From an uncultured Bacteroidales bacterium (GTDB taxonomy: Bacteria; Bacteroidota; Bacteroidia; Bacteroidales; F082), in assembly GCA_947166105.1 (NCBI GenBank), contig CAMVCZ010000006.1, forward strand, positions 1-64,000: a DNA stretch of 64,000 nt, written 5' to 3'. How positions within the stretch are numbered: the stretch's first letter is position 1; each line of letters begins with the position of its first letter. The position numbers and the translations under genes are program-made. Positions 1 to 15,340 of the stretch are shown one piece after another. The notes beneath the pieces were generated by a model. That model was not told the origin of the DNA. It searched no databases and saw only the letters and a program-made list of their open reading frames with translations.

Positions 1-112
1 TTTGTTCGTGAATTTCCTTCGTTTTGTTGTCATTTTCCCTAAAGTTTTTATTCCCCGCAAAACTACTGTTTTTCACCTTAACTCATGCTCTCAATTCTGG
101 GGTACATTATAA

Positions 113-1045
113 TTAGTTATTCCAACCTAATATCGAGTCATTTATCATTTTTGTAAATCGAATTGCACCTTTTGTGTTCAAATGATTAACATTCAACATT
201 TCATCTGTACCAAAAAACATTGTAGTGTAATCTAACCATTTTACGTTATCATACTCATCACACAATGCAGAATAAGTACTGTCCACAATCCTTTTCTGTA
301 TGGGATTATAATACTCAAAATAATATGGGTGACACGGCATGGAAATAAACAAAACATTCACATTTCGTTTTTTGCAAAGTTCAATTATCTGCTTTGTTAT
401 TATTGTATTGCTTTCACAAACTTGTTCAGCGTTTTCCTGGTATATTTTTGTATGATCAATTTCACAATGCGTTTTTCCATTTGCTTTCCATATAGAGTCA
501 TTGTATGGGATGTTTTCAAAATAACGACTTTGGAAACCATCAGAATCACATGTAAGGAAAGCTGCTCTATCTGATTTGTGAGTCAGTCTTTCGAAAATAT
601 CTTTGATATTAGCAGATATTTCAAAACGATTACTAAAGCCCTTGAAATCATCAAATCCAAAATAAATACTGTATTTTTTTACATACGTCTGAGCATATTT
701 ACCATCATTCCATAAGCCAGCATAGGTCGCATCCATAATCACATAACGAAGTGAATCCATTGCATCTATGTATTTGCTTAAAATCAGATAGTTATACAAA
801 GCACCTTGGTTTGCATAAGCACAACTGTAGGATGGCTGCCAATCAAAACAAGATGGCTTTACCCCCATAGCTGTGCCAGAAGACCCGATAACAAGAATTT
901 TAATCTCCGATGCGTGTTTATCCATATATTCTGCCTTAGCTTTAAAATCGTTGGGTACACTACGAAGAAATAGTTCTGCACATCCCAGTAAGAAAATAAA
1001 TATTACAATCGTTGGGACAAATACTTTAAATATGAACTTTTTCAT
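113..1045 (-). CDS. SGNH/DltD-like membrane-anchored protein, MBOAT partner
   Basis: 310 aa with one N-terminal membrane anchor (about residues 5-23) and a periplasmic domain. A GSS motif at residues 54-56 fits SGNH block I, with Ser55 or Ser56 as nucleophile. A C-terminal NVNHLN motif puts the block V His at 288. The residue three before that His, usually Asp in SGNH hydrolases, is Asn285. It lies 14 bp downstream of the MBOAT gene in the same operon, the arrangement of DltB-DltD and AlgI-AlgJ/X pairs. By analogy it would help pass an acyl group to an extracytoplasmic glycan. Family placement rests on motifs and context; the acyl donor and acceptor are inferred. It is the last gene of the locus seen here. 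Confidence 0.62.
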   Translation of the reverse strand: MKKFIFKVFVPTIVIFIFLLGCAELFLRSVPNDFKAKAEYMDKHASEIKILVIGSSGTAMGVKPSCFDWQPSYSCAYANQGALYNYLILSKYIDAMDSLRYVIMDATYAGLWNDGKYAQTYVKKYSIYFGFDDFKGFSNRFEISANIKDIFERLTHKSDRAAFLTCDSDGFQSRYFENIPYNDSIWKANGKTHCEIDHTKIYQENAEQVCESNTIITKQIIELCKKRNVNVLFISMPCHPYYFEYYNPIQKRIVDSTYSALCDEYDNVKWLDYTTMFFGTDEMLNVNHLNTKGAIRFTKMINDSILGWNN

Positions 1046-1058
1046 TTCCTATCCTTCT

Positions 1059-2504
1059 TTAAAACTGTTTATACACAAATTCTTGGGGCGCATCTCCTCT
1101 TAAAAAGAAAATAAGAACAGCAAACACAATCAAGCCCAACACTACCCAAATGGGTTTATTAGATTTCAATATGCTATATTTGGCTCCCATTTCATCAAGA
1201 TAATCTTTGATAATAACAATAATACCACAAAACAAAAACACGCCTATATTAAAACTGTCGTAAAAACTTGGCATTCCCCATGGTGCGAACCAACTTTTAA
1301 AACCCGTAACCACATCGCCAAATGTCTCTGCATGAGCAAAAATGCCACCAATTGTAACCAACAGATAGACACCTGCTGCTTTTAGAACATTAATGGGATG
1401 TAAAATCCAACCTTTAATCCACTTTAATTCTAAATCTTTTGCTTGAACATTTCTTACGATAATAGGAATAAACAAAGTTGCATGGTACAAACCAAACATA
1501 AGATAACCCCATGTTGCCTTATGCCAAAGACTAATAACAAATAGGTTAACATAAATAGCCATTATCATTCCCATTTTCCCTCTTTTCCTATACTTGAAGT
1601 TTAGTGGTGTATACACATAATCGGTCACCCATTGTGTCAGCGACATGTGCCATCTGCGCCAATAGTCGGATATGTTTTGGGCAAAGAAAGGATGATTGAA
1701 GTTTTCAGCCGAGACCATTCCTAACATGCGACTTGCTCCAATGGCCATGTGTGAATATCCAGCAAAATCACAATATATTCTAAACGGTCCCATCAAAGCA
1801 ACCAAAAACATAGTAGCACCATTGTCGACACCAACGGCAGTAGCCGTAATATATGCCGTCATTCTGTCGGCCACACATATCTTCATAAACCAGCCCCAAA
1901 GGAACCGCTTCAATCCTTCCACAAAGTTTTCATATTTGGGATCACGATTGGTGTGGAGTTGCGGGATGAAATCATTGGGCCTATCGATAGGACCGGCTAT
2001 CAACGAGGGAAAATAAGCCACGTAAGTAGCAAAAACCAGTAGATTCTTTTCAGCATTAATAGAACACTGATTAACTTCCATGGCATAACTTATCAGTCTG
2101 AAGGTATAGAAAGACAGACCCAAAGGCAAGATAATCTTCAACACCGAATGATGGAAATGCAAGCCCATAAGGTTAAACAAATCCACAAACGAGTCGTAGA
2201 AAAAATTGAAATACTTGAAATAGAACAGCGGTAACAGCCCTACTATAATGGTAAAAACCGTAATACGTCCTGCCTTATCCTCATCCCCTTTGTTGTTCCA
2301 CTTATCTATCTCTATTCCCATGAAATAGAAGAACAACGTCATCAACAGAATGATTGGGACGATTTTTATGCTAGCCATGGCATAAAAAACATAGCTCGCC
2401 GTAAGCAGTATTACATTTTGCACCATCTTTTTCTTGTTAAAGATGTAGTAGAGTGCAAAGACTATGGCAAAAAACGCCAAAAATTGCAATGAATGTAGCT
2501 CCAT
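1059..2504 (-). CDS. MBOAT family O-acyltransferase (AlgI/DltB-like)
   Basis: 481 aa polytopic membrane protein. It has the MBOAT signature: YWRRWHMSLT with His286, then LWHKATW with the conserved His328, and a further His341 in a GLYHA motif. Length matches AlgI/PatA/DltB-type enzymes, which move an acyl group from a cytoplasmic donor across the membrane to a glycan or teichoic acid. It lies between the carrier protein (37 bp upstream) and the SGNH-like protein (14 bp downstream). That order suggests the donor is the acyl group on the small carrier protein, as in Dlt systems. Family call is firm; the substrate is inferred. Confidence 0.9.
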   Translation of the reverse strand: MELHSLQFLAFFAIVFALYYIFNKKKMVQNVILLTASYVFYAMASIKIVPIILLMTLFFYFMGIEIDKWNNKGDEDKAGRITVFTIIVGLLPLFYFKYFNFFYDSFVDLFNLMGLHFHHSVLKIILPLGLSFYTFRLISYAMEVNQCSINAEKNLLVFATYVAYFPSLIAGPIDRPNDFIPQLHTNRDPKYENFVEGLKRFLWGWFMKICVADRMTAYITATAVGVDNGATMFLVALMGPFRIYCDFAGYSHMAIGASRMLGMVSAENFNHPFFAQNISDYWRRWHMSLTQWVTDYVYTPLNFKYRKRGKMGMIMAIYVNLFVISLWHKATWGYLMFGLYHATLFIPIIVRNVQAKDLELKWIKGWILHPINVLKAAGVYLLVTIGGIFAHAETFGDVVTGFKSWFAPWGMPSFYDSFNIGVFLFCGIIVIIKDYLDEMGAKYSILKSNKPIWVVLGLIVFAVLIFFLRGDAPQEFVYKQF

Positions 2505-2541
2505 TATAGTAGGGCTTTAAAGTTTTGATTAAAAAATAATA

Positions 2542-2784
2542 TTACTGAAGTTTGCTCTCAACGATGGAAATAAGGTCTCCCACTTTTTTCAGACGATTCA
2601 ACTCCTTCAGTTTGAACTTAATTCCAAGTTCATCCTCCACTTTGGTAATCATCAGCATGTGGGTGAGGGAGTCCCAGTTTTCCACATCGTTGGCAGTCAT
2701 TTCGTCGTTGATGACAATGTTCTTGTCGCCAAACACTTCTCTGAAGATCCATGTAATCTTCTCAATAATTTCATTTCTTTCCAT
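2542..2784 (-). CDS. Acyl carrier protein (DltC-like position)
   Basis: 80 aa acidic helical protein with the phosphopantetheine site in the motif NWDSLTH, Ser39. Size and motif match both ACPs and DltC. It is encoded directly upstream of the MBOAT gene, so it is the best candidate for the carrier that presents the acyl or aminoacyl group to the transferase. The locus has a second, different carrier gene next to the FabH-like gene. Two carriers in one operon suggest separate roles for synthesis and delivery, which is inference. Confidence 0.85.
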   Translation of the reverse strand: MERNEIIEKITWIFREVFGDKNIVINDEMTANDVENWDSLTHMLMITKVEDELGIKFKLKELNRLKKVGDLISIVESKLQ

Positions 2785-2803
2785 TTTCTCTTAATTTTAA
2801 TTG

Positions 2804-3835
2804 TTATACATTACGTTTATTATTATTCAATCTATCAACCAATATATCATAACCTTTCTGAATATAGTATGATAGTATCAGCATGAATGGAAATACCAGG
2901 CAAGCCATATAGACCCACTTCAACCATATTAAATCAGGATTCCATAACTTTTCACCTGCCCAAAAGAAGAAACGATGAAACATATAGCAAGCCATACTTG
3001 CATAGCTAATATTGTTCACAAGTTTTTCCAAAAAGGCTTGTGTTTTGTTTTCACCATAAGACTCTACCTCTCCAATATCTTGATGGAAAATCTTTCTTGC
3101 CAGTATATCACAAACAAACAACATGGCAAAAACCCCTAAAGACGAAGATACATTCAAATAATACTGCGTATAAAGCTTTGGGAAAAACGCACATAACACC
3201 ATGGCAACAATAAATAACACCACAACAGTACACTTCACAACAAAACCTTTCTTTGAGGAAAAGTACCATGAGAAATACGGTGCCGTAGCCATTCCCAAAA
3301 GATAAAATAAGACATTAAATACAAATCCTTCGTCTATAGGCAGAACCGCCTCTCCATATACAACTAAAAGACCAATTAATAAACAATTACAAACCCTCCA
3401 TTTTATTTGTTTCCTACATACAATTGGTGTTATCAGATAGCAGATGATAATTACAGGAATATACCACAGGGTCATCGGTCTTGGTGTAAGAAACGGTGAC
3501 AAACAAAGGATACCATATACAGTAGCTCTTGTCCCATTAAAACCAATAAGCCATAAAACAAGCGAAGCCAAAAGAAACAATGGTATTATTCTAATAACCC
3601 TGTTAATATAAAAGTCTTTTATTTTGTTTTCTCTTTGTCCAAAACGATATTTCTTACCAAGAAGATAACCCGATGTAAAAGTAAAAAGGCCTAAACAGGA
3701 ATCACAAAGAATATGGCAACAGGGGATAATATTAGCGGAAATAACATTATAGACATATCCATACAAATGTAAGAATGCAACAATATATGTCATACATATT
3801 ACCCGTGCAATATCAAAACGATAGTCCCTTTTCAT
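2804..3835 (-). CDS. Acyltransferase family 3 (OafA/WecH-like) membrane protein
   Basis: 343 aa with about ten hydrophobic segments. The N-terminus RFDIARVICMTYIVAFLHLYG places a His in the first membrane helix as in acyltransferase-3 proteins, followed by the typical FTSGYLLG motif. Such proteins O-acetylate surface sugars using cytoplasmic acyl-CoA. It sits 12 bp downstream of the ketoreductase-like gene in the glycan operon. It is distinct from the MBOAT protein, so the glycan probably carries at least two kinds of acyl substituent. The sugar modified cannot be told from sequence. Confidence 0.85.
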   Translation of the reverse strand: MKRDYRFDIARVICMTYIVAFLHLYGYVYNVISANIIPCCHILCDSCLGLFTFTSGYLLGKKYRFGQRENKIKDFYINRVIRIIPLFLLASLVLWLIGFNGTRATVYGILCLSPFLTPRPMTLWYIPVIIICYLITPIVCRKQIKWRVCNCLLIGLLVVYGEAVLPIDEGFVFNVLFYLLGMATAPYFSWYFSSKKGFVVKCTVVVLFIVAMVLCAFFPKLYTQYYLNVSSSLGVFAMLFVCDILARKIFHQDIGEVESYGENKTQAFLEKLVNNISYASMACYMFHRFFFWAGEKLWNPDLIWLKWVYMACLVFPFMLILSYYIQKGYDILVDRLNNNKRNV

Positions 3836-3847
3836 ACCTATATTTAT

Positions 3848-4585
3848 TTACCTGAGTGTATATCCACCATCTATCACCAATGAAGTACCAGTTATCAATT
3901 GAGTAGCTTCTGAGAAATAGTAAATCACAGCTTGTGCTATCTCTTCTGGTTTGGCAAACCGACCTAAGGGATAATTCTTCCTTATCTCTTCCAGTGTGTC
4001 TTCCCCGTATTTTTGAATCATTTCAGTTTCCACAAATGCTGGTTGTATGCAATTTACTCGTGCTCTTATAGGTAGAACTTCTAGAGCCAACACCTTCGCA
4101 AATTGGTTTACCGCCGCTTTAGATGCTCCATAAAGTGCATTGGAAACAGATGGATAGAAGGCCGAAACCGAAGACATAAACACGATAGATGCCTGCTTGT
4201 TGATTTTTTTTGCCTTCAGCAAAGATTTCATCAACAGAGCCGGTCCCGTCAAGTTTGTTGACATCATATTTGTGATAAAGCCTTCATCAATCTTCTTGAC
4301 AATCATCTTGTCATTAATGCCAGCGATAAGAGCAACACCATCTAACACCTCAACTGAATCAACAAGATTTTGAATATCTTCAACAGAGGTGATATCAGCC
4401 TTGATGATTCTATGTCCTTCATTTTCCATTTCTGTCAGCGTCCGAGCCAAACGCTCCTCATTTCTGGCTGTTAGATATACTTTAGCACCAGCCTTGGAGC
4501 ACTCAATAGCTGTAGCTTTACCAATACCAGATGAAGCACCAGTCACCAATATGGTTTTCCCTTCTAGGGAGAATGGATTATACAT
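3848..4585 (-). CDS. SDR family oxidoreductase, FabG-like ketoreductase
   Basis: 245 aa classical short-chain dehydrogenase. The cofactor motif TGASSGIG starts near residue 15, and the catalytic Ser plus YGASK (Tyr/Lys) lie in the middle. The C-terminus SLVIDGGYTLR is typical of FabG. It lies 4 bp downstream of the FabH-like gene, next to the carrier and FabD-like genes. The simplest role is reducing a 3-ketoacyl group on the carrier to a 3-hydroxyacyl group. It could instead act on a sugar or a different ketone. Confidence 0.85.
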   Translation of the reverse strand: MYNPFSLEGKTILVTGASSGIGKATAIECSKAGAKVYLTARNEERLARTLTEMENEGHRIIKADITSVEDIQNLVDSVEVLDGVALIAGINDKMIVKKIDEGFITNMMSTNLTGPALLMKSLLKAKKINKQASIVFMSSVSAFYPSVSNALYGASKAAVNQFAKVLALEVLPIRARVNCIQPAFVETEMIQKYGEDTLEEIRKNYPLGRFAKPEEIAQAVIYYFSEATQLITGTSLVIDGGYTLR

Positions 4586-4589
4586 AATT

Positions 4590-5645
4590 CTAAAGATATT
4601 GAAGTTCGGATACTACGATGTGGTCGCAATTCAGATAACCAGCCCCGAAAGAGAGACCAGTACCAAAACCAGTAATGATAAGGTTGTTGTCCTTATTTCT
4701 TAGGGAGTCCGCTATATTTGTCACCATCAACAGCGGAACACAGGCATTGCTCGAATTACCGAAGTCGTAGAAGTTATACGGTACCTTATCATCCGCCAGT
4801 TTGAGTTTCTTGTGAATCTTGTTGCAACTCATCTTGCTGGCATGGTGCAGCATGTAAAAGTCAACCTTGTCATCGGTAATTTCGTAATGTGCCAAAAAGT
4901 CTTTGATGCATCCCACAACCCGCATCATGACAAACTGGAACACCGCCTCACCATCCATTTTGAACTGCAATGCTGTTCTGATATTGCCATTGGCATCGGC
5001 TTTCTCTACAAAACTTTCTGGCGTTATCGGATTGCGATAACCACCATCGGGGATAATCAGAGAATCTTTCCCATCGCCAAAAGTCTGTAAACTGAAATAC
5101 ATGGGAGCGGCTTGCTTGTCATGCACTAACGCTGAGGCGGTCCCTGCATCACCCAAAATCAAGTAAGCACTCTTGTCCTTGGGATTGGAGTTCTTATACT
5201 GTGTGTTTCCTACTAGCAGAAGTGCCTTCTTAATATCCCCTTTCTCCATCATTCCTGACAATACTGAGAGTCCATAGACAAGCCCGGAGCAACCAAGTGA
5301 GATATCGAATGCCATACAGGTGTTGAGGAGTCCTAACCGCTCTTGAAGAACACATGCAGTGGCTGGCATCTTATAGTCAGGGGTGGCAGAGACAAACACC
5401 AAAGCGTCTATCTCCGTCTTATCCCAACCAAGATCAACCATCAGTTTTTCTGCAGCCTTGAAGCAAAGGTCTGATGTGCAAACATCGGGTGTGGTACAAT
5501 GACGGTACCTCACACCAGTAGAATCCACATATACCTGACGCTCTTCGGGCGAAATAAACGGGTAATCGAGATTGTCTTCCACATTTTGAGGAACACAAAC
5601 CGCAACCCCGGCATACCTGACATTGTTTATTGATAAATATGCCAT
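4590..5645 (-). CDS. 3-oxoacyl-ACP synthase III family protein (FabH-like)
   Basis: 351 aa thiolase-fold enzyme with the KAS III Cys-His-Asn triad visible: Cys119 in SLGCSG, His267/268 in MLHHAS, Asn297 in FGNSSNA. KAS III enzymes condense an acyl-CoA with malonyl-ACP. It overlaps the stop codon of the preceding carrier gene (TAATG), implying translational coupling and a dedicated carrier. Its place in a sugar locus, not a fatty-acid operon, marks it as a specialised homologue. The product may be a short ketoacyl chain for the glycan. Acyl transfer without condensation is an alternative known for some FabH homologues. Confidence 0.85.
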   Translation of the reverse strand: MAYLSINNVRYAGVAVCVPQNVEDNLDYPFISPEERQVYVDSTGVRYRHCTTPDVCTSDLCFKAAEKLMVDLGWDKTEIDALVFVSATPDYKMPATACVLQERLGLLNTCMAFDISLGCSGLVYGLSVLSGMMEKGDIKKALLLVGNTQYKNSNPKDKSAYLILGDAGTASALVHDKQAAPMYFSLQTFGDGKDSLIIPDGGYRNPITPESFVEKADANGNIRTALQFKMDGEAVFQFVMMRVVGCIKDFLAHYEITDDKVDFYMLHHASKMSCNKIHKKLKLADDKVPYNFYDFGNSSNACVPLLMVTNIADSLRNKDNNLIITGFGTGLSFGAGYLNCDHIVVSELQYL

Positions 5646-5872
5646 TATTTGCTCATAACAAGGTTATACAACTCCTCGATGGTGTTGACCGAACGCAATT
5701 CTGCCCCTGTCATCTGAACGTCCATCTCGTCATCAATGGCAGAAATAACAGACAATGCTGTTAGTGAACCCCATTCTTCCAATTCACGGTAACGGGTGGA
5801 GGGCTCAAATGTTTCTTCAGGAGTGAGAGAAAACTCGCCCGCGAAAAGTTTTACAAATTCATTCAGTGTCAT
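5645..5872 (-). CDS. Acyl carrier protein (paired with FabH-like gene)
   Basis: 75 aa acidic helical protein with the attachment site EEWGSLTAL, Ser36. The Asp before Ser that is usual in ACPs is Gly here, as in some specialised carriers. Its stop codon overlaps the start of the FabH-like gene, and the FabD-like gene ends 27 bp upstream. It is likely the scaffold for chain building by the neighbouring FabD-like, FabH-like and SDR proteins. Confidence 0.82.
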   Translation of the reverse strand: MTLNEFVKLFAGEFSLTPEETFEPSTRYRELEEWGSLTALSVISAIDDEMDVQMTGAELRSVNTIEELYNLVMSK

Positions 5873-5899
5873 AATACTAAAATTTTAAATGTTAAACGT

Positions 5900-6841
5900 T
5901 TATTTGATTGTCCTATAATTCTTAACTTTGTTTTGATAGCTTGGTACATCAAGCAGCGACTGGCAATGCAACGCCGGGTACATACGGCTCACTATCTTTT
6001 CCAACGTGTCGTCTGTGCCTACCTCATAAAACTCGGTCACACCATCATTGGCCATGTTGTGGGTCATTGAAGTCCATAAAACAGGATGAGTGATGTGCTG
6101 AATCAGGTTGGCACAGATTTCTTCGGGGTCGGTGTGCGGTAGGGCATCCACACACTGATAGACGGGGATTGATGGGGTGTGGAATTCGGTTTTCTTGATG
6201 ATTTCGCCCAATTCCTCACGTGCTGTATCCATGAAAGGAGTATGGAAACTACCACCAATAGGCAACGACACTGCCTTTTTTGCTCCCTCTTCCATGAATG
6301 CCTTACATGCAGTGCGAACACCTTTTTTGCTCCCTGAAATCACCACTTGACCAGGGCCATTGTAGTTGGCAAAATAGATAGGTTCGCCTGTCTCATCCCA
6401 TATCTCTTTAATGCGCTTGGCCACATAATCATCACTGAGTCCGATAACAGCACCCATCCCTGTCTTAACGGGAGCGTTTTCGTATGCTTTCTGTCCGATA
6501 ATCGCCCTATTTAACACAAGGTTCAAGCCATCTTCAAAACTAAGACATCCATTCACCACCAACGCGGCAAATTCCCCCAAGGAATGACCAGCCACTGCAT
6601 CAGGGCGAACATCGTTTTGACACATAGCCAGCACAACTTCATACAAGAAAACCGATGGCTGTGTATTGATGGTCTGCATCAGCTCCAATTCTGTGCCGTT
6701 GAACATCACATCTGTTATACGACGGCCAAGATAATCGTTGGCACGTTCAAAGAGTTCTTTGGCTTTCGGGAACTGTTCATACAAGTCTTTGCCCATGCCC
6801 TCTTTTTGGCAACCTTGGCCTGGGAAGATAAATGCTTTCAT
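5900..6841 (-). CDS. ACP S-malonyltransferase family protein (FabD-like)
   Basis: 313 aa acyltransferase-domain protein. N-terminal FPGQGCQKEGMG, nucleophile motif GHSLGE with Ser87, and a later GGSFHTPFM motif holding the catalytic His. FabD loads malonate onto the carrier phosphopantetheine. Length is normal for FabD. It lies between the GNAT gene (10 bp upstream) and the carrier gene (27 bp downstream). It appears to be a locus-specific paralogue serving the small acyl-building set, since no other fatty-acid genes surround it. Acyl specificity (malonyl or other) cannot be read with certainty. Confidence 0.88.
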   Translation of the reverse strand: MKAFIFPGQGCQKEGMGKDLYEQFPKAKELFERANDYLGRRITDVMFNGTELELMQTINTQPSVFLYEVVLAMCQNDVRPDAVAGHSLGEFAALVVNGCLSFEDGLNLVLNRAIIGQKAYENAPVKTGMGAVIGLSDDYVAKRIKEIWDETGEPIYFANYNGPGQVVISGSKKGVRTACKAFMEEGAKKAVSLPIGGSFHTPFMDTAREELGEIIKKTEFHTPSIPVYQCVDALPHTDPEEICANLIQHITHPVLWTSMTHNMANDGVTEFYEVGTDDTLEKIVSRMYPALHCQSLLDVPSYQNKVKNYRTIK

Positions 6842-6851
6842 AATGATTACT

Positions 6852-7523
6852 CTATTTTATTTCCTTCTCCATCAGTACGATTGTATTGTATGGGTAGAAC
6901 TCCAATATTCTTGGATGATTAGAGACATACTTTTTGGTAATCTTAAATCCCATTGATTTGTTTGTAAGCAGAATGATTTTGTTTGCTTCAAATGCATGGC
7001 CTTGGATTTTTTTTGCTCCAAGGTTCTTTGCTCTTCCAATATGAGCCTCCGTCAAATCTTGAAGCAAGAACTGTCCACGGTGTTCTGGTAAAATGTAAGA
7101 GTATTCCAGTTGGTAGGCGCCCATTTCTTTTTCCACATTCAAATCCTTGATAATTTCAGCGTTTTCTTTGGATTTCAAGACTTTATTACGAGGCAATACG
7201 TACATCAATAGATTCGACTTCAATAAGGAAGATGGCATATTATCCTCGTTGTTGCCTTCAAGCCATCCGCCCATAGCAGCTACCACTTCACCATCGTACT
7301 CAATTACAATGAAACTTCCGATTGACAATTCACAACCATCCACCTCTTCTTCAAAAGTCTGTTTAATATAACCACGTAACTCATCCTCTGTGATTTCAAA
7401 ATATTTGGCCATACCGCACATACCTGACGAACTCTTTTCGGCCTGTAAAACAGTTTCGGTAAGAAAGTCAACATCATCTAACGTGGCCGGTCTAATTTTA
7501 TATTTGCTTGCATCAATTGTCAT
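6852..7523 (-). CDS. GNAT family N-acetyltransferase
   Basis: 223 aa. The middle region (QLEYSYILPEHRGQFLLQDLTEAHIGRAKNLG) matches GNAT motif A with an acyl-CoA binding loop, followed by an SMGF segment typical of motif B. It probably acylates an amino group on a small precursor such as an amino acid or amino sugar. It lies in the operon between the VOC gene and the FabD-like gene. The substrate is unknown; a role in making the dedicated side group is inferred from context only. Confidence 0.75.
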   Translation of the reverse strand: MTIDASKYKIRPATLDDVDFLTETVLQAEKSSSGMCGMAKYFEITEDELRGYIKQTFEEEVDGCELSIGSFIVIEYDGEVVAAMGGWLEGNNEDNMPSSLLKSNLLMYVLPRNKVLKSKENAEIIKDLNVEKEMGAYQLEYSYILPEHRGQFLLQDLTEAHIGRAKNLGAKKIQGHAFEANKIILLTNKSMGFKITKKYVSNHPRILEFYPYNTIVLMEKEIK

Positions 7524-7540
7524 AACTATTCCTTTCTTTT

Positions 7541-7945
7541 TTAATCTACTAATTCAATAAGACCAACATGCAAATGGTACAAGTAGCAAATCTGATGATT
7601 GTCCATCGCTACTGACTCCACAGGTTCAAACAAAGGTTTGAACCCCTCGTCGAACAAATCCTCCACCGCTTGTTCTATGTCGTCAACATCATAACAAACA
7701 TGATAAGTACAGCAGCCAATCTTTTGCAAGTACGTATCGACTGGCGACTGCTCACCCTCTTTCAAAGGAGCCACAAGTTCAATCTTTGGGAAGCCGTCCT
7801 TAGTTAGAAATGCAATCTTGGCATGTTGAACCTCTTCCTCATAGATTTCAGACAGTTGCCATCCAGCATCAAGATAAAACTGTGCCGTTTTTTGAATATC
7901 ACGCACGGCATAACCGATATGGTTTACTGATTTTAAATGTTTCAT
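7541..7945 (-). CDS. VOC family protein (methylmalonyl-CoA epimerase/glyoxalase-like)
   Basis: 134 aa beginning SVNHIGYAVRDIQKTAQFYLDAGW, the standard first module of vicinal-oxygen-chelate proteins with a metal-ligand His. Two modules are visible. The overall pattern is closest to methylmalonyl-CoA epimerases, which invert the carbon alpha to a thioester. Lying between the adenylation enzyme and the GNAT gene, it might epimerise an activated intermediate. That is inference; VOC proteins have many activities. Confidence 0.75.
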   Translation of the reverse strand: MKHLKSVNHIGYAVRDIQKTAQFYLDAGWQLSEIYEEEVQHAKIAFLTKDGFPKIELVAPLKEGEQSPVDTYLQKIGCCTYHVCYDVDDIEQAVEDLFDEGFKPLFEPVESVAMDNHQICYLYHLHVGLIELVD

Positions 7946-7957
7946 ATTGGTATGTTT

Positions 7958-9454
7958 TTATTGAATCATTGCTTTAAGTTTCACCTTGTCGGTCTTGTCG
8001 TTGGCATTCAACGGGAATACCGGCACATAGAATAAACGCGTCGGGATCATATAAGATGGCATCTTGGTGCGCATGTAAGCAATCATCTCGTCGGGGTTGA
8101 ACTCCTCTTTCTCTATAAACATGGCTATCTCTGTGAGCGCATCCTTGTTTTCAAACGCCATGCAAACCACATTGGTATCGCCAAGGAACTCGCGAGCGTG
8201 CCATTCAATCTCTCCCATTTCCACACGGAATCCCTGTATCTTGGCCTGATGATCCAAGCGGCCTGAATACATGATGTCACCATCCTCGTCCTTAAAGCAG
8301 AGGTCGCCCGTATGATAGAAACGTAGGTTCTTGCCATCAACCTCTTTGTAGAAGAACGAACTGGCGTTTTTCTCCTCGTTTTTCCAGTAGCCTTTGGTCA
8401 CCTGGTCGCCAGCAATGCAAAGCTCACCTTTCTCGCCTACGGCACATTCGTTACCCTTTTCGTCCAAAATCATCCCCACACAATTGGCCAAAGGCTTGCC
8501 AATGGAGATAATACCGTTGAGCGTTTTGTTATGGCCACCTTTGGTTAATTTGTAATAGGTGCAATAGACGGTGCATTCTGTCGGGCCATAGAAGTCGTAC
8601 AATTCCACATTTGTAGCACACTTATACCAATCTTCCATCAGGTTCAGTGGACAAGCCTCGGCAGTGAGGATGCACGACTTGAGGCTGGTGGCATCAATCT
8701 CCTCAAAGTAAGGCTTCAAATACCTCAGCATCGAAGGAGCCATAGCACCAAAAGTCAACTGATGGTCTTCGATAAGGCTGCTGGCATAGATATACTTGAT
8801 TTGGCCGTGAGGCACCGTGTAGCAGCAAGCACCCTTGGTGAGCGGCACCAAGTAGCCCTGCACCGACACATCAAACGTCAAGTCGAAGCACTGCAAGCAA
8901 CGGTCTTCCTCAGTGATTTTGATGCCCGTCTGCCAGAACGAATTCATAAAGGCCGCAACATTCTTGCGCATCATCATCACGCCCTTGGGCTTGCCCGTGC
9001 TCCCCGAAGTGAACAATATATAAGCCAATTCCTCGTCCGATACACCTTCTTTGGGTGTCAAGCACTCCTGCTCGTATTGCAAAGCTACAGTGTTGATAAC
9101 CTGCACTCCTTCATATCGAGTCTGATCAGAAGAATCAAGGATCAAATCAAGCTCCACCTGCTCGCAGATATCCATACAACGCTCCAACGGCCAGCCCGGA
9201 TGCAGCGGCACATAGCAATCTCCCTCCAGCCACAAAGCGATGATGGAAGCGTAGGTTTCCAAGTCATCATTGATGACCAAGCCAACCTTGGTGTTGCTGT
9301 AGTTGGTCTTGGTCAACTGACTTCTCACTTTCGACACACACTGCCCAAATTGGGCGTAGGTGTAGTGCACCTCGTTGATGCAGAAGGCATTGTGGGTTGG
9401 GAATTGTTCTATTGAGCTGAGGATTGGTGTAAGTATATCATTTATAAAACCCAT
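7958..9454 (-). CDS. Amino acid adenylation enzyme (stand-alone NRPS A domain/DltA-like)
   Basis: 498 aa from the ATG at 9454; a TTG 27 bp further upstream is less likely. Adenylation-domain core motifs are in order: FTSGSTGKPKG (about residues 148-158), FDVSV with the Asp that in A domains contacts the substrate amino group (about 195), FYGPTE, the TGD motif and a terminal NDKTDK holding the A10 lysine. No condensation or carrier domain is fused, as in DltA. It would activate an amino acid with ATP and load it on one of the two free-standing carriers. The specificity code was not extracted. It forms a Dlt-like set with the carrier, MBOAT and SGNH genes at 113-2784. Confidence 0.88.
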   Translation of the reverse strand: MGFINDILTPILSSIEQFPTHNAFCINEVHYTYAQFGQCVSKVRSQLTKTNYSNTKVGLVINDDLETYASIIALWLEGDCYVPLHPGWPLERCMDICEQVELDLILDSSDQTRYEGVQVINTVALQYEQECLTPKEGVSDEELAYILFTSGSTGKPKGVMMMRKNVAAFMNSFWQTGIKITEEDRCLQCFDLTFDVSVQGYLVPLTKGACCYTVPHGQIKYIYASSLIEDHQLTFGAMAPSMLRYLKPYFEEIDATSLKSCILTAEACPLNLMEDWYKCATNVELYDFYGPTECTVYCTYYKLTKGGHNKTLNGIISIGKPLANCVGMILDEKGNECAVGEKGELCIAGDQVTKGYWKNEEKNASSFFYKEVDGKNLRFYHTGDLCFKDEDGDIMYSGRLDHQAKIQGFRVEMGEIEWHAREFLGDTNVVCMAFENKDALTEIAMFIEKEEFNPDEMIAYMRTKMPSYMIPTRLFYVPVFPLNANDKTDKVKLKAMIQ

Positions 9455-9484
9455 ATTATTTAATTGTTTCTTTAGAGACAATGT

Positions 9485-9517
9485 GTTAATTTTTAAAACT
9501 TGTTTGTAACTTATTGT
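9485..9517. repeat. Copy 1 of a ~32-bp degenerate repeat
   Basis: This segment, from GTTAATTTTT to TTTGTAACTTATTG, aligns without gaps to 33753-33785 with only a few differences. It lies about 75 bp before the IS4-type transposase remnant, so it may be part of an insertion-sequence end. The second copy is in another gene-free gap of the window. Confidence 0.45.
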
Positions 9518-9591
9518 GGTATAGTATTATATAAGTATTCTTTTTTTGATTTGTAATGATTAAGTGACTTTGAAACCTTAACACCAAGGCT

Positions 9592-9747
9592 ATGCATTTA
9601 GGAAGAAAGGCACTATCTCAGATAGTCGGCTTCATACCGAGATACAAGTTCGATAGGATAGTGTCCAAGTATAACGGCAACTATCACACGAAGGAACTCA
9701 ACTGCTATAACAAGTTTGTACACCAGCTTTCGTTTCAATCTAAATGA
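9592..9747 (+). pseudogene. Remnant of IS4-type transposase, N-terminal DUF4372 domain
   Basis: A 51-codon plus-strand frame from ATG 9592 to TGA 9745-9747 reads MHLGRKALSQIVGFIPRYKF and continues DRIVSKYNGN...KFVHQLSFQ. This is the pattern of the DUF4372 domain that opens IS4-family transposases of Bacteroidota. The catalytic DDE part is missing: the frame stops about where the intact protein would enter it. It is the only gene trace on the plus strand in the polysaccharide locus, in the gap between the adenylation gene and an ATP-grasp gene. I read it as the relic of an insertion that lost most of its length. Confidence 0.7.
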
Positions 9748-9748
9748 C

Positions 9749-10849
9749 CTATAAAACCTTACTCAACAATTTGTTCCTCGTATTGAACACTTCTGCAATT
9801 ATTTCTTGCGTCAGATCTCCAAACAGCGGACCGTTGCACATCTGATGAAATGAAATGCCTCCGTGTGTAGCATTCATCTCAATCAGAATTGGATCTCCTT
9901 CTGCATCAATGGCGAAATCCCAAGAAATAAGTTTCGTAAAGTTGAGAAATCTGTTATGAAGATTCTCAGCAAGGTTTATTAGATTATCAAAACCAGGCAC
10001 ATGATGGTTTTCGTAGTGTTCTCCTGTCGTAGGGTGTTGTTTGAACACATCGCCATTATCATTGTAAGCTATGTTTTTTAACTTGCCCGAATTGTCCACA
10101 CCTACAAATATACCACCAGCACTGGCATTATCGATTTTACCTCCTCCTGCCCCCATTCTTATGATAGTCGAAATGGCTTTCACTTTGCCATTGTGGAAAA
10201 ACGTCATAATACGGATTGTATTTAACGATGAGGGATGAAGGGACGCAAGCTGTTCATGCTGACTGGCGAAATCCTGTACCACACAGTTTCTATAGGTTGT
10301 AATCTCACCAATAAACGATTCAAATTCATCTTTATCATCACCTTTATAAACTTGTATGCTCTTGCCCCCACCGCTTTCTATAGATGGTTTGATGATATAA
10401 CTCGCATCTGCAGAAAACCGCTTACGCATTTCTTCTTGTGTCATACGCCTAAAATCACCATCCAGCAGGACTCCATCTGTCATACGTGCAATAGTCTTGG
10501 GCTGTTTGACATCATAGAAAAAAAGTGAATTGAGATTCTTATCTTCAATAGTACGACACTTTTTATAGTCCGTATAGTGCATGTCAACAAGGCTATAATA
10601 AAGGTTGCTCGGCATATAAAGGGGCGTCCATTCACGTCCCTCCTCATTAAACAGGTTAAAGAACGCAAACCATCTGTAGTCAACCCTAATGCCTTTCCAA
10701 ACATTTTGTACTTGTTGTTTCTGCTCGTGGGTTAGAGTTGGCAAATTGAGCTTTTTCAGGTCGTTGTTCATGAAATTCTGTATTCTTTTTGAACGCCATA
10801 AACATTGACGAAAAGCGATAACAGTTTCAATAGCTGTGCGATTGTTCAT
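9749..10849 (-). CDS. ATP-grasp protein, sugar-transfer-associated type
   Basis: 366 aa. It has an ATP-grasp glycine-rich segment (SIESGGGKSIQVYKG, middle) and the metal-binding end LISWDFAIDAEGDPILIEMNATHGG. The pattern matches the ATP-grasp family found in glycan loci ('sugar-transfer associated'). Such enzymes make an amide or ester bond through an acyl-phosphate. It is related to the protein at 12232-13455, and both share the NTIRIMTF/NTIKLITM and RMGAGG/RFGAGG motifs. With the opine-dehydrogenase-like enzyme between them, they may link an amino acid derivative to a sugar; substrate unknown. Confidence 0.75.
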   Translation of the reverse strand: MNNRTAIETVIAFRQCLWRSKRIQNFMNNDLKKLNLPTLTHEQKQQVQNVWKGIRVDYRWFAFFNLFNEEGREWTPLYMPSNLYYSLVDMHYTDYKKCRTIEDKNLNSLFFYDVKQPKTIARMTDGVLLDGDFRRMTQEEMRKRFSADASYIIKPSIESGGGKSIQVYKGDDKDEFESFIGEITTYRNCVVQDFASQHEQLASLHPSSLNTIRIMTFFHNGKVKAISTIIRMGAGGGKIDNASAGGIFVGVDNSGKLKNIAYNDNGDVFKQHPTTGEHYENHHVPGFDNLINLAENLHNRFLNFTKLISWDFAIDAEGDPILIEMNATHGGISFHQMCNGPLFGDLTQEIIAEVFNTRNKLLSKVL

Positions 10850-10979
10850 TTTAATTAAGAAATTTTATTACAGGAAAAACACCGATGCGACAATTACTAT
10901 TATCACAATTACTACCAACCAAGATTAACACCAAGGTGTCGGACTTCTTAATAGGATCGTTATGCCTGTCCATAGTTTA

Positions 10980-12185
10980 TTAATCGATACAATCCTCTAT
11001 TGTCTTGAAACCATAAACACTTGGAACACCACATTTCAATGGTTTGGTGAGGTCGGGGCTGTCAAGAATCAAACGGTTGTTGTCGTCGATGATTTTCTCT
11101 CCACGCACCAACTGTGCCCAGTGCAGGATTTCATCAATGGTCGGAGTTTCTATATTCAGTTTTTCTGCCATCCACTTGGCAATGCAGTTGCCGTAGTAAA
11201 TGTCATCGAGGAAGAAACGGTGGTTGCGGTCAACCTCCCATGTCCCTTCCGCGTTCTGCACCACAGGTGTCTGGATTGACACCAACGTCTGTGAAGTGAC
11301 AAACGACTCCTTTACATCCGTATTATGCGACTGGTAGGAAAAACGTTCCAATGCAAGATAATCAAGCATATAGCTGTAATCTTTTTCGGGATGCATCTTG
11401 ATAATAGCTTGGCGAATCTTGGTGTAGTCATCGTCCAACGAAGCCAACAGATCTGCCGAAACATCGTCATAGTCGCGATAGAACCACGGCACCTCCTCTT
11501 TGGTTTTCCATGTGCGGCCATACACCTTGTAGAGGCCTAAGCAACGAGAGGTATGGATAATTTGGTTGTCCACAGAGAGCGAAAGCGAAAGGAAATTCTC
11601 TGCTTGTTCTACCTTTCCTTTGCCGAACCAACGGTAACAGATTTGTTCCAGCAATTCTTCGTCAATCTGCTTGAAGTAATGCTTCGGATAACAAGCCGCA
11701 TAGTTGGCAGCCTTGCACCCGTATGTCACACCGATTTCACCATATTTAATTAGACGACAAATCCATGGAATAAGACCAAATGCAAAGGTAACAATATTGG
11801 TCAAGCCATACTGCTGTTTGATTTCGTCAACCATCCAGTTCCAACCTCCTTGACCATAAACTGTTCCGATGAACACGGTCTTTTCCTTGTTCAGATAGGG
11901 TGCTATCTCATGTAGGCACACACGGTATTTGTGTACCGGCATGGTAAACACCACATAGTCGGCTTCGGGAAACAACTCTTTCGGATCACTCGAAGCTTTC
12001 TTGATGTCACCAGAATACGTTCCCATCACTTTACCTGACGGGTCGTGCCATTCCAACTGAATGGTTTTGGCCCATTTTTCTGGGCGGGAAGTGTAAACAC
12101 TCACATCGAAGATTGAATCCTTCAGAAAAGGAATCAAGGTGTGCGAACTACTGCCGCCACCGCATACTACTAATTGTTTATTCAT
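10980..12185 (-). CDS. Opine dehydrogenase-like protein (NAD/NADP octopine/nopaline DH family)
   Basis: 401 aa. The N-terminus has a Rossmann fold with an unusual glycine-rich loop, CGGGSSSH. The C-terminal half fits the octopine/nopaline dehydrogenase domain, including a conserved His in NQIIHTSR (middle of the protein). Opine dehydrogenases reductively join the amino group of an amino acid to a 2-oxo acid. Carboxyethyl amino acids of this type are known on O-antigens of Proteus and Providencia, so a role in making such a glycan substituent is plausible. Flanked by two ATP-grasp genes that could attach the product. Family call is good; the product is inference. Confidence 0.7.
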   Translation of the reverse strand: MNKQLVVCGGGSSSHTLIPFLKDSIFDVSVYTSRPEKWAKTIQLEWHDPSGKVMGTYSGDIKKASSDPKELFPEADYVVFTMPVHKYRVCLHEIAPYLNKEKTVFIGTVYGQGGWNWMVDEIKQQYGLTNIVTFAFGLIPWICRLIKYGEIGVTYGCKAANYAACYPKHYFKQIDEELLEQICYRWFGKGKVEQAENFLSLSLSVDNQIIHTSRCLGLYKVYGRTWKTKEEVPWFYRDYDDVSADLLASLDDDYTKIRQAIIKMHPEKDYSYMLDYLALERFSYQSHNTDVKESFVTSQTLVSIQTPVVQNAEGTWEVDRNHRFFLDDIYYGNCIAKWMAEKLNIETPTIDEILHWAQLVRGEKIIDDNNRLILDSPDLTKPLKCGVPSVYGFKTIEDCID

Positions 12186-12231: not shown

Positions 12232-13455
12232 TTAATAATGCCTTAATTTCACATTTAGAGCTTTCCCATGATATTTATAAAATTTATCATGCAAACCGCC
12301 ATGTGTAACTTGATAAACAGGTATTTCCCAATCTTCACCTGTCTCTGTAAACACAAAACCATTCGGTGTTATGGCGACATCCCAACCAATGGACGGTATT
12401 CCATAGAAGAATTTATGAAACTCTTTCGCCGTAGCCAACAATTCATCCCAGTATGGAATTGTCATTCCGCCAAACTTCACACCCGTGTCAGGATGAATTC
12501 CAGGAACCACAAGATTCTTCTTGATTCCAGGCTCGTGGTAGCCAATCTCCTGAAGTGTCCCATCCTCTTCAATACCAACAAAAACCCCGCCTCTCGATGC
12601 ATTATCCACGAAATTACCGCCTGCGCCAAAACGCATTACGGAATCGAAGAAATCAACCGTACCATCATTGTTCAACATGGTAATAAGTTTGATGGTATTT
12701 AACGATTTATCGTAAACTGCGTCTATAACAGGATGGTTTTTCAACCTCTCTTGAATGATGAAGGTAGCACTTCCTATTCTTCTTCTTAATTCATCCAATG
12801 ATATTTCATCATCTCTATCATACAGTTTACCATCTTCTACCCTAAGATTAAACGCCCCATTCCCACTTTCACCATTAACCTCCTTGCAAAAAGCATCAAA
12901 CGACTTTTCAAGAATACTTTCCATTGGAGAAAACACCATTTTTTCACCATCATACCAACTCACCTGTCCTTTTGACACCAAACCTATTGTTTGGGGATAA
13001 GGCATTCCAAGGCTTTTGCAGTATTGGTAGAACACAAATTTGTCACGAGCCAAAGCAAGGTAATTGAATGTATAAAGAGTTTGGAGATTTTCTCGCTGAC
13101 GGAAATTCAATATATTCCTCAATACACGGAACTCGGTGTATGCCACATAATCTTTTGGTTTACGATCTTTCAAATCCAGACCATATAAGAAATAATACTT
13201 ACACACTTCTTTGTATTTGAAGGCCCAGCAAATATTCTCCCAAAAAATTCTTGTGTTGGTCTTACGTTCTCCGGGGAACTGCTGGGTATTATACTTATTA
13301 TCAAACGGAAACCTTATTGTGTCGCAAATTAATTCTTTCTTCAGTTTAAGCTCATGCAATAATCTCCGCAATCCATTGTCTTTAGGAAGAGGCTGCCCAT
13401 AGTAACGCTTATACGGTCGCTCATTATGGATTAAAACAAACAAATGACAGTTCAT
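12232..13455 (-). CDS. ATP-grasp protein, sugar-transfer-associated type (paralogue)
   Basis: 407 aa. ATP-grasp features: SGNGAFNLRV nucleotide loop, SLNTIKLITM, RFGAGGNFVDNASRGGVFVGI and the terminal catalytic segment SIGWDVAITPNGFVFTETGEDW. It is a divergent paralogue of the protein at 9749-10849. The N-terminal third is longer and unlike it. The stop codon of the upstream hexapeptide acetyltransferase lies 4 bp before its start, so the two are co-translated. Likely a ligase acting on a sugar- or lipid-linked intermediate; substrate unknown. Confidence 0.75.
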   Translation of the reverse strand: MNCHLFVLIHNERPYKRYYGQPLPKDNGLRRLLHELKLKKELICDTIRFPFDNKYNTQQFPGERKTNTRIFWENICWAFKYKEVCKYYFLYGLDLKDRKPKDYVAYTEFRVLRNILNFRQRENLQTLYTFNYLALARDKFVFYQYCKSLGMPYPQTIGLVSKGQVSWYDGEKMVFSPMESILEKSFDAFCKEVNGESGNGAFNLRVEDGKLYDRDDEISLDELRRRIGSATFIIQERLKNHPVIDAVYDKSLNTIKLITMLNNDGTVDFFDSVMRFGAGGNFVDNASRGGVFVGIEEDGTLQEIGYHEPGIKKNLVVPGIHPDTGVKFGGMTIPYWDELLATAKEFHKFFYGIPSIGWDVAITPNGFVFTETGEDWEIPVYQVTHGGLHDKFYKYHGKALNVKLRHY

Positions 13456-14038: not shown

Positions 14039-15340
14039 TTAATTTTTATACAATTCTTGTGGATTTAATTTCTCCATTAAAAGAGAGTTGCCTTCATTAT
14101 CAAATGCATCATATAACGCATGTACCTCATCTGCTTCGGCAACAAGTTGATCCTTGTTTTCTGCTACAATTTCAGCAGTAAAAATTGCTCTGTCAATGGT
14201 TCTGTCTTCTTTCCATTCATACCCTTCACCAACGTATTCAATAGTCTCTACACAATAAGGAAGGCTTCTTATCTCATCCATGCCAATTATTTTTCCTACT
14301 TTACCTTCCTTCCCTTTAAGCAGAAAATTAATGTCAGCTGCATAATGACCGTTATACTTTGCCATATCAACAGGATATTGGCTAATGTCGCTCACCATCT
14401 TTCCTGTAAGAGCATAACGGATAACCATTCTCATAGCGTCGTCGCCAAAAAGATAACGTTGGTGATTGAAATAAGAACCTCCTAAACGGCAACCCATTTC
14501 AAAGAATGTCAATTTATTGCCATCACAATACCCTTGCAAAAACATCAAACCATCAGTGAACCCAAGGTCATGGAACATGTGAGTGACTTTTTCGTTTATG
14601 TTCTTCATATAGAAATCAAGATTGTGCGAAGGAGCAATAGCAATATTTGAGAAGTTGACTGCACTGCCTCGGTCTGGTGACATATATCGGTCGAACATAG
14701 ACAATAGGCGATATTCTCCATCAACCGCCATATAGTCGAGCAGGAAGTCTCTTCCTGTGATATAGTCTTCGATTATTGCATTTCCCGACACAGAATAACT
14801 CAAGGCATCTGCAAAACGTTCATCTAACTCTTTCCTATTATAGCATACGCCTGCTCCTCTTGAACCCGAAGCATCAAGTGGTTTCACAAAGACTGGGTAT
14901 TGAATCCGGGCATAAACCTCGTCTGTTATTTTCTCTCCAACAAGATAGGTTTCAGGGACAGGTACACCATATTTTTTGCAGGTTTCCTTAAACGCCACCT
15001 TGTTGGTTGACATTTCAATCATTTTGGGTGTTGCGTAATATGGCAGCCCCAATTGTTTACAAACGTCATAACATGGCTGCAATAGAATGTCAACAAAACC
15101 AGTGGTCACACCATCAACGTGTTCTTCCTTTGCAAGTTTCACTAATGCATCTACATCGGTTGCACTAACAGTAGTATATTTATCAGCCAAACCATTACCT
15201 GGAAGATCGGGATTGTAGTCGGCTACCACAACATATACACCCATTTCTTGCGCACGTCTGATAATATCGCAAGCCTGATTAAATCCCCCAAGAAGGAGCA
15301 GTCTTTTACCTTTAAGTTCTTGATTTTCCATTTTTAACAT
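14039..15340 (-). CDS. ATP-grasp domain ligase (CarB/PurK-like)
   Basis: 433 aa. Begins with a Rossmann-like domain (KRLLLLGGFNQACDIIRRAQEMG), then the ATP-grasp core: PVFVKPLDASGSRGAGV nucleotide loop and FMEMGCRLGGSYFN-type metal end. This third ATP-grasp protein is of the carbamoyl-phosphate-synthase-like ligase class, distinct from the two sugar-associated ones. Such enzymes join amino acids or other carboxylates to amines. ATG at 15340 or, nine bases later, 15331 may be used. It is followed upstream at 2 bp by the initiating sugar transferase gene. Confidence 0.78.
   Translation of the reverse strand: MLKMENQELKGKRLLLLGGFNQACDIIRRAQEMGVYVVVADYNPDLPGNGLADKYTTVSATDVDALVKLAKEEHVDGVTTGFVDILLQPCYDVCKQLGLPYYATPKMIEMSTNKVAFKETCKKYGVPVPETYLVGEKITDEVYARIQYPVFVKPLDASGSRGAGVCYNRKELDERFADALSYSVSGNAIIEDYITGRDFLLDYMAVDGEYRLLSMFDRYMSPDRGSAVNFSNIAIAPSHNLDFYMKNINEKVTHMFHDLGFTDGLMFLQGYCDGNKLTFFEMGCRLGGSYFNHQRYLFGDDAMRMVIRYALTGKMVSDISQYPVDMAKYNGHYAADINFLLKGKEGKVGKIIGMDEIRSLPYCVETIEYVGEGYEWKEDRTIDRAIFTAEIVAENKDQLVAEADEVHALYDAFDNEGNSLLMEKLNPQELYKN

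Follow-up and report, generated by a model that had tools for sequence, protein, structure and literature searches.

Organization of the Operon

The window, meaning the whole stretch of 64,000 nucleotides analysed here, starts with the first base of contig C6 (CAMVCZ010000006.1) in a 3.52 Mb, 100-contig assembly of an uncultured Bacteroidales bacterium, and opens with an operon that may encode a carrier-fed acylation system for a cell-surface glycan. The operon consists of eleven minus-strand genes running from position 9454 down to 113 with intergenic gaps of -1 to 37 bp, in the order adenylation enzyme (A-domain), VOC protein, GNAT, FabD, acyl carrier protein 1 (ACP1), ketoacyl-ACP synthase III (KASIII), ketoreductase, AT3, ACP2, MBOAT and SGNH; any genes past the SGNH end would lie off-contig. 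An earlier note on this DNA described the A-domain, carrier, MBOAT and SGNH-like open reading frames as four genes of one operon. All four are present on the minus strand at the coordinates given below, and the operon is single and tight, but the four genes are not contiguous: VOC, GNAT, FabD, a second ACP, KASIII, ketoreductase and AT3 separate the A-domain from its carrier. A promoter and terminator scan of positions 1–11000 gave nothing informative.

The A-domain (7958..9454) is a stand-alone enzyme of the nonribosomal peptide synthetase (NRPS) type, which matched PF00501 and scored 312.9 bits against TIGR01733 (cut-off 317.4). Its closest A-domain in the PDB is linear gramicidin synthase. 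DltA models were its second and third best NCBIfam matches, and both equivalog cut-offs were missed (TIGR01734, 232.8 bits, cut-off 559.85; PRK04813, 236.4 bits, cut-off 476). The carrier paired with the A-domain, ACP2 (2542..2784), bears S39 in a DSL motif; only acyl-carrier-protein models matched it at E ≤ 0.001, and no DltC model did. The ACP2 gene sits immediately upstream of the MBOAT gene.

The MBOAT transferase (1059..2504) matched PF03062 at 74.7 bits. DltB was its best NCBIfam model, although the DltB equivalog TIGR04091 was missed (161.2 bits, cut-off 375), and its H286 and H328 both align with DltB histidines. The very C-terminus of the protein reads FVYKQF (1062..1079, Tyr478), which fits the acyl-shuttle motif FXYXXF as defined in PMC12148441. 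In the available part of that paper, as of the other papers cited below, DltB hands D-alanine (D-Ala) to the microprotein DltX, which bears FXYXXF, while PatA-type MBOATs carry the motif C-terminally and acylate its tyrosine. Non-Dlt MBOAT-SGNH systems are described there as having no comparable carrier, evidently since acyl-CoA is used (PMC12148441). A separate DltX was not found: no FXYXXF frame exists in positions 1–160 or 9400–9800 on either strand (the rest of the genome was not searched).

The last gene (113..1045) encodes an SGNH/DltD-like periplasmic transferase with S56 and H288, both invariant among 28 sequences. It scored 21.2 bits against PF04914 (DltD), just below the cut-off of 22.7, and its fold was assigned by a structural model (predicted local distance difference test, pLDDT, 91.1), whose best five Foldseek PDB matches were all DltD. 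Absence of a family from the matches listed in the structure search does not speak against it.

Recurrence in Bacteroidota

The earlier note had proposed looking for the same genes together in other Bacteroidota, and they do recur. An A-domain scan of the genome collection, which reaches close relatives only, gave 43 loci (labelled here by L numbers, as are those from later draws), all from Bacteroidota: Bacteroidales metagenome-assembled genomes, Aquimarina, Flavivirga, Aureibaculum, Ferruginibacter, Saprospiraceae and others. An ACP2-like gene lies no more than eight genes downstream of the A-domain in 42 of them. The MBOAT gene directly follows the carrier in 24/43 and lies within 6 kb in 29/43. 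When the other genes were shuffled within each locus (2000 rounds), the mean number of such adjacencies was 3.44 and the maximum 10. The adjacency was present in 10 of the 16 A-domain clusters formed at 70% identity. FXYXXF ends 23 of the 24 ACP-adjacent MBOATs, and the remaining one is cut by a contig end. Compact forms of the set are A-GNAT-ACP2-MBOAT-SGNH in L136, where the SGNH protein scores 267 bits, the same order in L116, and A-VOC-GNAT-ACP2-MBOAT-SGNH-like in L138. In L107, L093, L105, L115 and L122, Pfam found no SGNH family in the proteins after the MBOAT, and the SGNH calls rest on GDS/GSS and His motifs that are not complete in every locus. The A-ACP-MBOAT-SGNH set thus recurs as a unit across Bacteroidota loci.

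When 393 genomes were drawn evenly from the window's order, the A-domain was found at E ≤ 1e-90 in 30, the window's own genome counted. One of these regions (L154) was dropped, as the gene picker gave no A gene despite the earlier match; ACP-MBOAT adjacency was seen in 7 of the 29 usable regions, or in 8 with L153, whose ACP the gene picker had first missed. No ACP was found in the gap between A and MBOAT in L161. Within the window's genus, 7/99 genomes have the A-domain, again with its own genome counted.

A quick MBOAT tree without bootstraps was built from the MBOATs of A-domain loci and five from the window genome, 76 sequences thinned to 67, with the window MBOAT labelled ACP-linked by hand. 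The ACP-linked label (28/67) needed 4 changes on the tree against 21.7 when shuffled, and none of 500 shuffles was as low. The window MBOAT belongs to a supported clade with 18 members, 15 ACP-linked ones among them; because the MBOATs were sampled nearly all from A loci, clade membership alone is no evidence, and only the clustering of the label counts. Its closest relative is the MBOAT of L136 (53% identity).

Substrate Pocket of the Adenylation Enzyme

The pocket code of the window A-domain is DVQSITFVYK, with positions set by alignment, for which GrsA motif landmarks were placed on the sequence of the window enzyme. The Asp and Lys that bind the amino acid are kept in 72/72 aligned A-domains, the window included, so that the earlier note's check on whether the pocket can bind an amino acid has a positive outcome. 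The code may partly resemble proline codes, a likeness from which no substrate is claimed here. The A-domains fall into three pocket classes: 18 have DVQSITF (that of the window and 17 more), 30 belong to a Cys class and 24 have some other pocket. L137, judged by length to be the same contig as L098, was left out of this set; by the same measure L169, L170 and L171 lie on the contigs of L093, L095 and L096.

The D-Ala pocket of DltA, taken for comparison from the available part of PMC8972799, consists of Asp, Leu, Met and Cys, of which the Cys picks the enantiomer. The window has Asp, Val, Gln and Thr and does not match it. Since this Cys selects the enantiomer in DltA, the Cys-class A-domains probably use D-Ala and the window enzyme probably uses another substrate, as judged from pocket residues. 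Several operons with the DltA-type pocket belong to named marine Aquimarina strains.

The A-domain of L136 (5212-6696) is a natural mosaic, with a Cys-class pocket core between flanks of the window lineage. Residues 240–300 are 41% identical to the window and 68% to the Cys-class L105, while for residues 0–120 the same two comparisons give 73–80% and 35–48%. On these identities it looks like a natural exchange of the specificity core in which the remaining operon was retained.

Genes between the A-Domain and the Carrier

The VOC metalloprotein (7541..7945) resembles methylmalonyl-CoA epimerase (TIGR03081, 65.8 bits, cut-off 114.95; PDB matches 3hdp and methylmalonyl-CoA epimerases). Its H9, E56, H82 and E131, which we take to be putative metal ligands, are identical in 4/4 aligned copies, and it is possibly an aminoacyl-thioester epimerase. 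The next gene (6852..7523) encodes a GNAT-fold N-acyltransferase, for which a model of pLDDT 93.4 gave acetyltransferases as all 50 PDB matches listed. The window GNAT itself had no Pfam or NCBIfam match, and 10/14 members of its alignment matched PF00583. It could possibly N-cap the aminoacyl carrier.

The following genes resemble a small fatty-acid synthase (FAS) cassette. A FabD-type malonyl transferase (5900..6841; TIGR00128, 256.5 bits, cut-off 260.9) has S87/R112/H200, to which we assign its functional roles. ACP1 (5645..5872), the carrier of the cassette, has S36 and matched PF00550 at E 7e-4 (20.2 bits, cut-off 20.8); many relatives' loci have ACP1-like genes close to KASIII. The FabH-like condensing enzyme KASIII (4590..5645) matched PF08541/PF08545, and its C119/H267/N297 were aligned with the Cys, His and Asn of 4efi. 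The FabG-type ketoreductase (3848..4585), with S139/Y152/K156 as its presumably functional residues, matched PF13561 and 3-oxoacyl-ACP reductase models below their equivalog cut-offs. A glycan-specific set of ACP, ketosynthase and ketoreductase (5645-5872, 4590-5645, 3848-4585) is thus present. The AT3 membrane acyltransferase (2804..3835; PF01757, 89.7 bits) comes last, and a relative of it adjoins a ketoreductase in L043.

These insertions are not spread evenly over the pocket classes. A VOC gene precedes ACP2 in 5/18 DVQSITF loci and 0/54 others (p 6e-4), and FAS genes, with the ketoreductase as marker, lie between A and ACP2 in 4/18 and 0/54 (p 3e-3); both p values are optimistic because related loci were treated as independent. 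The FAS sets of the window, L092, L095 and L101 differ in arrangement, although the window and L092 share the order ACP1-KASIII-ketoreductase. In 12/43 loci a GNAT gene separates A from the last carrier. In 3/43 a formyltransferase-cluster gene directly follows A (L105 11488-12339, L128 and L132; PF00551 confirmed on L105) and could possibly N-formyl-cap the aminoacyl carrier.

Remodelling of the amino acid ahead of its export, by GNAT, VOC and the mini fatty-acid synthase, is plausible. By analogy, an N-acyl-aminoacyl product is plausible, because N-acylated amino acids are known in O-antigens and a FAS cassette is predicted in Flavobacterium psychrophilum.

Some further features of these genes were observed. 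The window GNAT has Phe at the glycine position of the CoA loop. This position is F or M in 3/3 FAS-linked GNATs and in 0/24 others (Fisher 3.4e-4, post hoc, related loci), where four of the 24 were added later and test only the negative side; as the pattern was seen before counting, the loci are related and the FAS locus L101 is without such a GNAT, it is a hint only. In L093 (11500-13326) the carrier is separated from the A-domain by a MaoC-type dehydratase gene as well as a pair of GNAT genes. In L187–L190 the GNAT genes lie in fetched regions without this family's A-domain, which is elsewhere in those genomes, and ACP2 and MBOAT stand next to the GNAT in L187 and L190 only.

The Surrounding Glycan Locus

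Upstream of the operon lie ATP-grasp genes, an opine-dehydrogenase-like gene, a sugar transferase and glycosyltransferases. Further on are a Wzy-like protein (22784-24010) and a Wzx-like protein (24029-25549), each with a weak family match only, and the same locus encodes UDP-glucose dehydrogenase and FnlA/FnlB/WecB-type genes for L-N-acetylfucosamine (L-FucNAc). Because of these glycosyltransferase, Wzy-/Wzx-like, UDP-glucose dehydrogenase and L-FucNAc genes, we regard the region as a Wzx/Wzy-type glycan locus, the setting that the earlier note had given.

Close to the module, the opine/nopaline-dehydrogenase-like gene (PF02317, 10980-12185) may form an amino acid of the N-(1-carboxyethyl)alanyl type, a group already described from O-antigens in the part of the literature available. 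Three ATP-grasp genes (9749-10849, 12232-13455 and 14039-15340), two of them in a sugar-transfer-associated family, possibly encode additional amino-acid or amide ligases for the glycan. Immediately upstream of the A-domain gene is a remnant of a DUF4372 protein of 51 residues (9592-9747, plus strand, 45 bits). DUF4372 is, we assume, the N-terminal portion of a transposase, and the position of this remnant hints at cassette exchange.

Proposed Pathway and Alternatives

We propose, with a rough probability of 0.65, that the operon encodes a carrier-fed system which aminoacylates, across the membrane, the capsule or O-antigen that its locus produces. Gene content, recurrence, motifs and folds were observed; all the reactions, as well as the nature of amino acid and acceptor, are inferred from them. 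In this pathway, the A-domain would adenylate an amino acid, probably not D-Ala, and load it on Ser39 of ACP2. The GNAT and VOC proteins may then modify the aminoacyl-ACP by N-acylation and alpha-carbon epimerisation, and the FabD-ACP1-KASIII-ketoreductase cassette may provide a 3-hydroxyacyl group. The MBOAT would move the group from ACP2 onto its own Tyr478 in the C-terminal FVYKQF, on the periplasmic side, from which Ser56 of the SGNH protein would accept it and esterify a glycan hydroxyl.

Several observations weigh against this proposal. The Asp of the catalytic triad is replaced by Asn285 in the SGNH protein, and its TM-score to DltD is only 0.41–0.44 by query length, a loose structural match. 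The pocket DVQSITFVYK was matched to no substrate. FXYXXF is present in 72/76 sampled MBOATs, so the motif marks the shuttle and is no sign of carrier use. The adjacency also follows the pocket: among the 43 loci, ACP and MBOAT are adjacent in 20/20 of the Cys class, in 4/15 with the window's DVQSITF pocket (L093, L096, L103 and L132) and in 0/8 others. In L092, despite an A-domain of 92% identity and the presence of FAS genes, GNAT and ACP2, no MBOAT lies within 6 kb, and in L094 and L095 the MBOAT is on the opposite strand. In six DVQSITF loci (L098–L102, L127), a different GNAT, c12, stands after ACP2, or after KASIII in L101.

A polysaccharide-deacetylase-like gene follows c12 in five of these six loci, which L172 and L173 resemble. 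ACP2-c12 was also found with other pockets in six loci of the even draw (L061, L147, L149, L158, L159 and L163). The A-ACP2-c12 order can be seen in L098 (12182-13967), and most c12 loci have a polysaccharide-deacetylase-like gene nearby. This arrangement looks like a cytosolic branch in which an amino sugar is first deacetylated and its amine then aminoacylated. In seven Flavobacteriaceae loci (L119–L121, L123, L124, L129 and L131), A-ACP2 stands beside sugar-transferase and FemAB-like genes. As many loci are without an adjacent MBOAT and have c12 or other genes instead, A-ACP2 is the conserved core, and MBOAT-SGNH is one of at least two outlets.

A more specific form of the proposal is tentative, and we would sooner doubt it than rely on it: the operon as an export line for tailor-made N-capped amino acids. 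Here A would load ACP2, swappable cappers, all encoded at one position of the operon, would act on the loaded amino acid, and the shuttle-fused MBOAT and the SGNH protein would export the product onto the glycan. The cappers would be a GNAT alone, a formyltransferase, a VOC protein, or a GNAT with the mini fatty-acid synthase, the last giving an N-3-hydroxyacyl-aminoacyl group, and specificity would evolve by swaps of the A core with MBOAT and SGNH kept.

A possible alternative, also short of an even chance, is that one operon holds two independent decorations, in which A, ACP2, MBOAT and SGNH add an amino acid while the 3-hydroxyacyl group from FabD-ACP1-KASIII-ketoreductase is attached elsewhere by AT3 or a cytosolic transferase. 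The two parts do occur separately. The amino-acid module has no FAS genes between A and ACP2 in L136, L138 and L094, and L043 has FabD-ACP1-KASIII-ketoreductase-AT3 with no A-domain of this family and no MBOAT match in 20 kb (it has one distant AMP ligase, 47 bits). KASIII relatives were found in 22/60 genomes (E ≤ 1e-40) against 3/60 for the A-domain (E ≤ 1e-60), with the own genome in both, and F. psychrophilum has a comparable cassette that is predicted to build the acyl group of its O-antigen, in the available part of the report on it. On the other hand, FAS genes lie between A and ACP2 only in DVQSITF loci (4/18 against 0/54), and no AT3 match was found in L092 or L095. The further thought that the MBOAT carries the FAS product alone was ranked lower because FAS-free A-ACP2-MBOAT units are common.

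It is rather unlikely that the amino acid primes KASIII and gives a 4-amino-3-hydroxyacyl (statine-like) chain that is exported or attached. L101 would suit it, since its order is A-ACP1-ketoreductase-ACP2-KASIII and its c12 transferase is not preceded by a GNAT of the window family. However, KASIII lies between A and ACP2 in only 3/18 DVQSITF loci (0/54 others), with that of L101 just after ACP2, and the window KASIII is FabH-like with an ordinary Cys-His-Asn triad, a type that normally accepts acyl-CoA.

The earlier note had seen here the functions of DltA, DltC, DltB and DltD. The same four roles are indeed present with a DltD-like SGNH protein, DltB and DltA models rank high for MBOAT and A-domain, and the DltA Cys is kept in 30/72 A-domains. 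A true Dlt-type D-alanylation transferred into a Gram-negative bacterium is nevertheless highly improbable: every Dlt cut-off was missed, the pocket has Val, Gln and Thr (the last in place of the D-Ala-selecting Cys) where DltA has Leu, Met and Cys, the shuttle is fused with no DltX candidate in the operon flanks, and a mini type II fatty acid synthase lies inside. The plain Dlt reading was rejected on the cut-offs and the pocket. A small NRPS-like natural-product pathway lying in the glycan locus by chance, for which linear gramicidin synthase as the closest PDB A-domain would speak, is equally improbable in view of the recurring MBOAT and SGNH-like partners and of the Wzx-like and glycosyltransferase genes nearby in many loci.

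Comparison with Known Systems and Significance

The aminoacylation system proposed here is outside Dlt membership yet probably works like Dlt. With DltA-DltC-DltB-DltX-DltD it shares A-enzyme, carrier, MBOAT and SGNH, a carrier-fed donor and the Foldseek likeness to DltD, and its Cys-pocket relatives have the D-Ala Cys. Besides cut-offs, pocket and fused shuttle, it differs in the extra GNAT, VOC and FAS genes, and its acceptor would be a Wzx/Wzy glycan where that of Dlt is teichoic acid. With PatA-PatB and AlgI-AlgJ it shares an MBOAT with the conserved His and a C-terminal FXYXXF, and a separate SGNH partner; unlike them, the window encodes A-enzyme and carrier together with the MBOAT. The system looks like a hybrid, carrier-fed as Dlt and shuttle-fused as PatA/AlgI, and what distinguishes it is that an A-enzyme and a carrier are combined with an MBOAT that has the shuttle fused to it. 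A different kind of MBOAT-SGNH association is mentioned in the available part of the lipocone paper.

The earlier note considered carrier-fed acylation new for this phylum. In principle it is known for Gram-negatives, as AlmEFG and the Bordetella dra locus add amino acids to the envelope (PMC3783018, PMC4448142). In the accessible portions of these sources, AlmEFG glycinylates the lipopolysaccharide (LPS) of Vibrio cholerae and is carrier-fed as well, and dra confers a D-Ala modification. AlmG has an LPLAT domain where the window has an MBOAT-SGNH pair, and no LPLAT Pfam family was among the matches of the eleven operon proteins. For Bacteroidota, no A-carrier-MBOAT system was described in the open-licence literature searched, among the matches listed.

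A known system close to the FAS cassette is wfpC-wfpG of F. psychrophilum, predicted to build the O-antigen R-group (PMC6519341). It likewise lies in a Bacteroidota glycan locus that has FucNAc and comprises an O-antigen-specific ACP, ketosynthases and a ketoreductase, but a PglD homologue attaches its group to the nitrogen of an amino sugar, and no A-domain, MBOAT or SGNH is named in the available part of that paper. N-acylated amino acids such as N-[(S)-3-hydroxybutyryl]-D-alanyl in E. coli O123 (PMC10609480, PMC3210612) are the type of group that A, GNAT and FAS would yield. As far as the accessible text of these reports goes, they are amide-linked to amino sugars, whereas an MBOAT-SGNH product would be an ester.

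If the proposal is true, a carrier-fed, shuttle-fused MBOAT in Bacteroidota would be a directly testable bridge from the Dlt mechanism to that of PatA/AlgI. Bacteroidota capsules or O-antigens would then be expected to bear amino acids in ester linkage, which may be N-acylated. Amino-acid esters would alter surface charge and antigenicity, and alkaline work-up could remove them. If the N-capped export line is also true, the operon would, within the literature searched, stand outside Dlt-type loci as a carrier-fed MBOAT-SGNH system and be the first that exports a multi-part acyl group.

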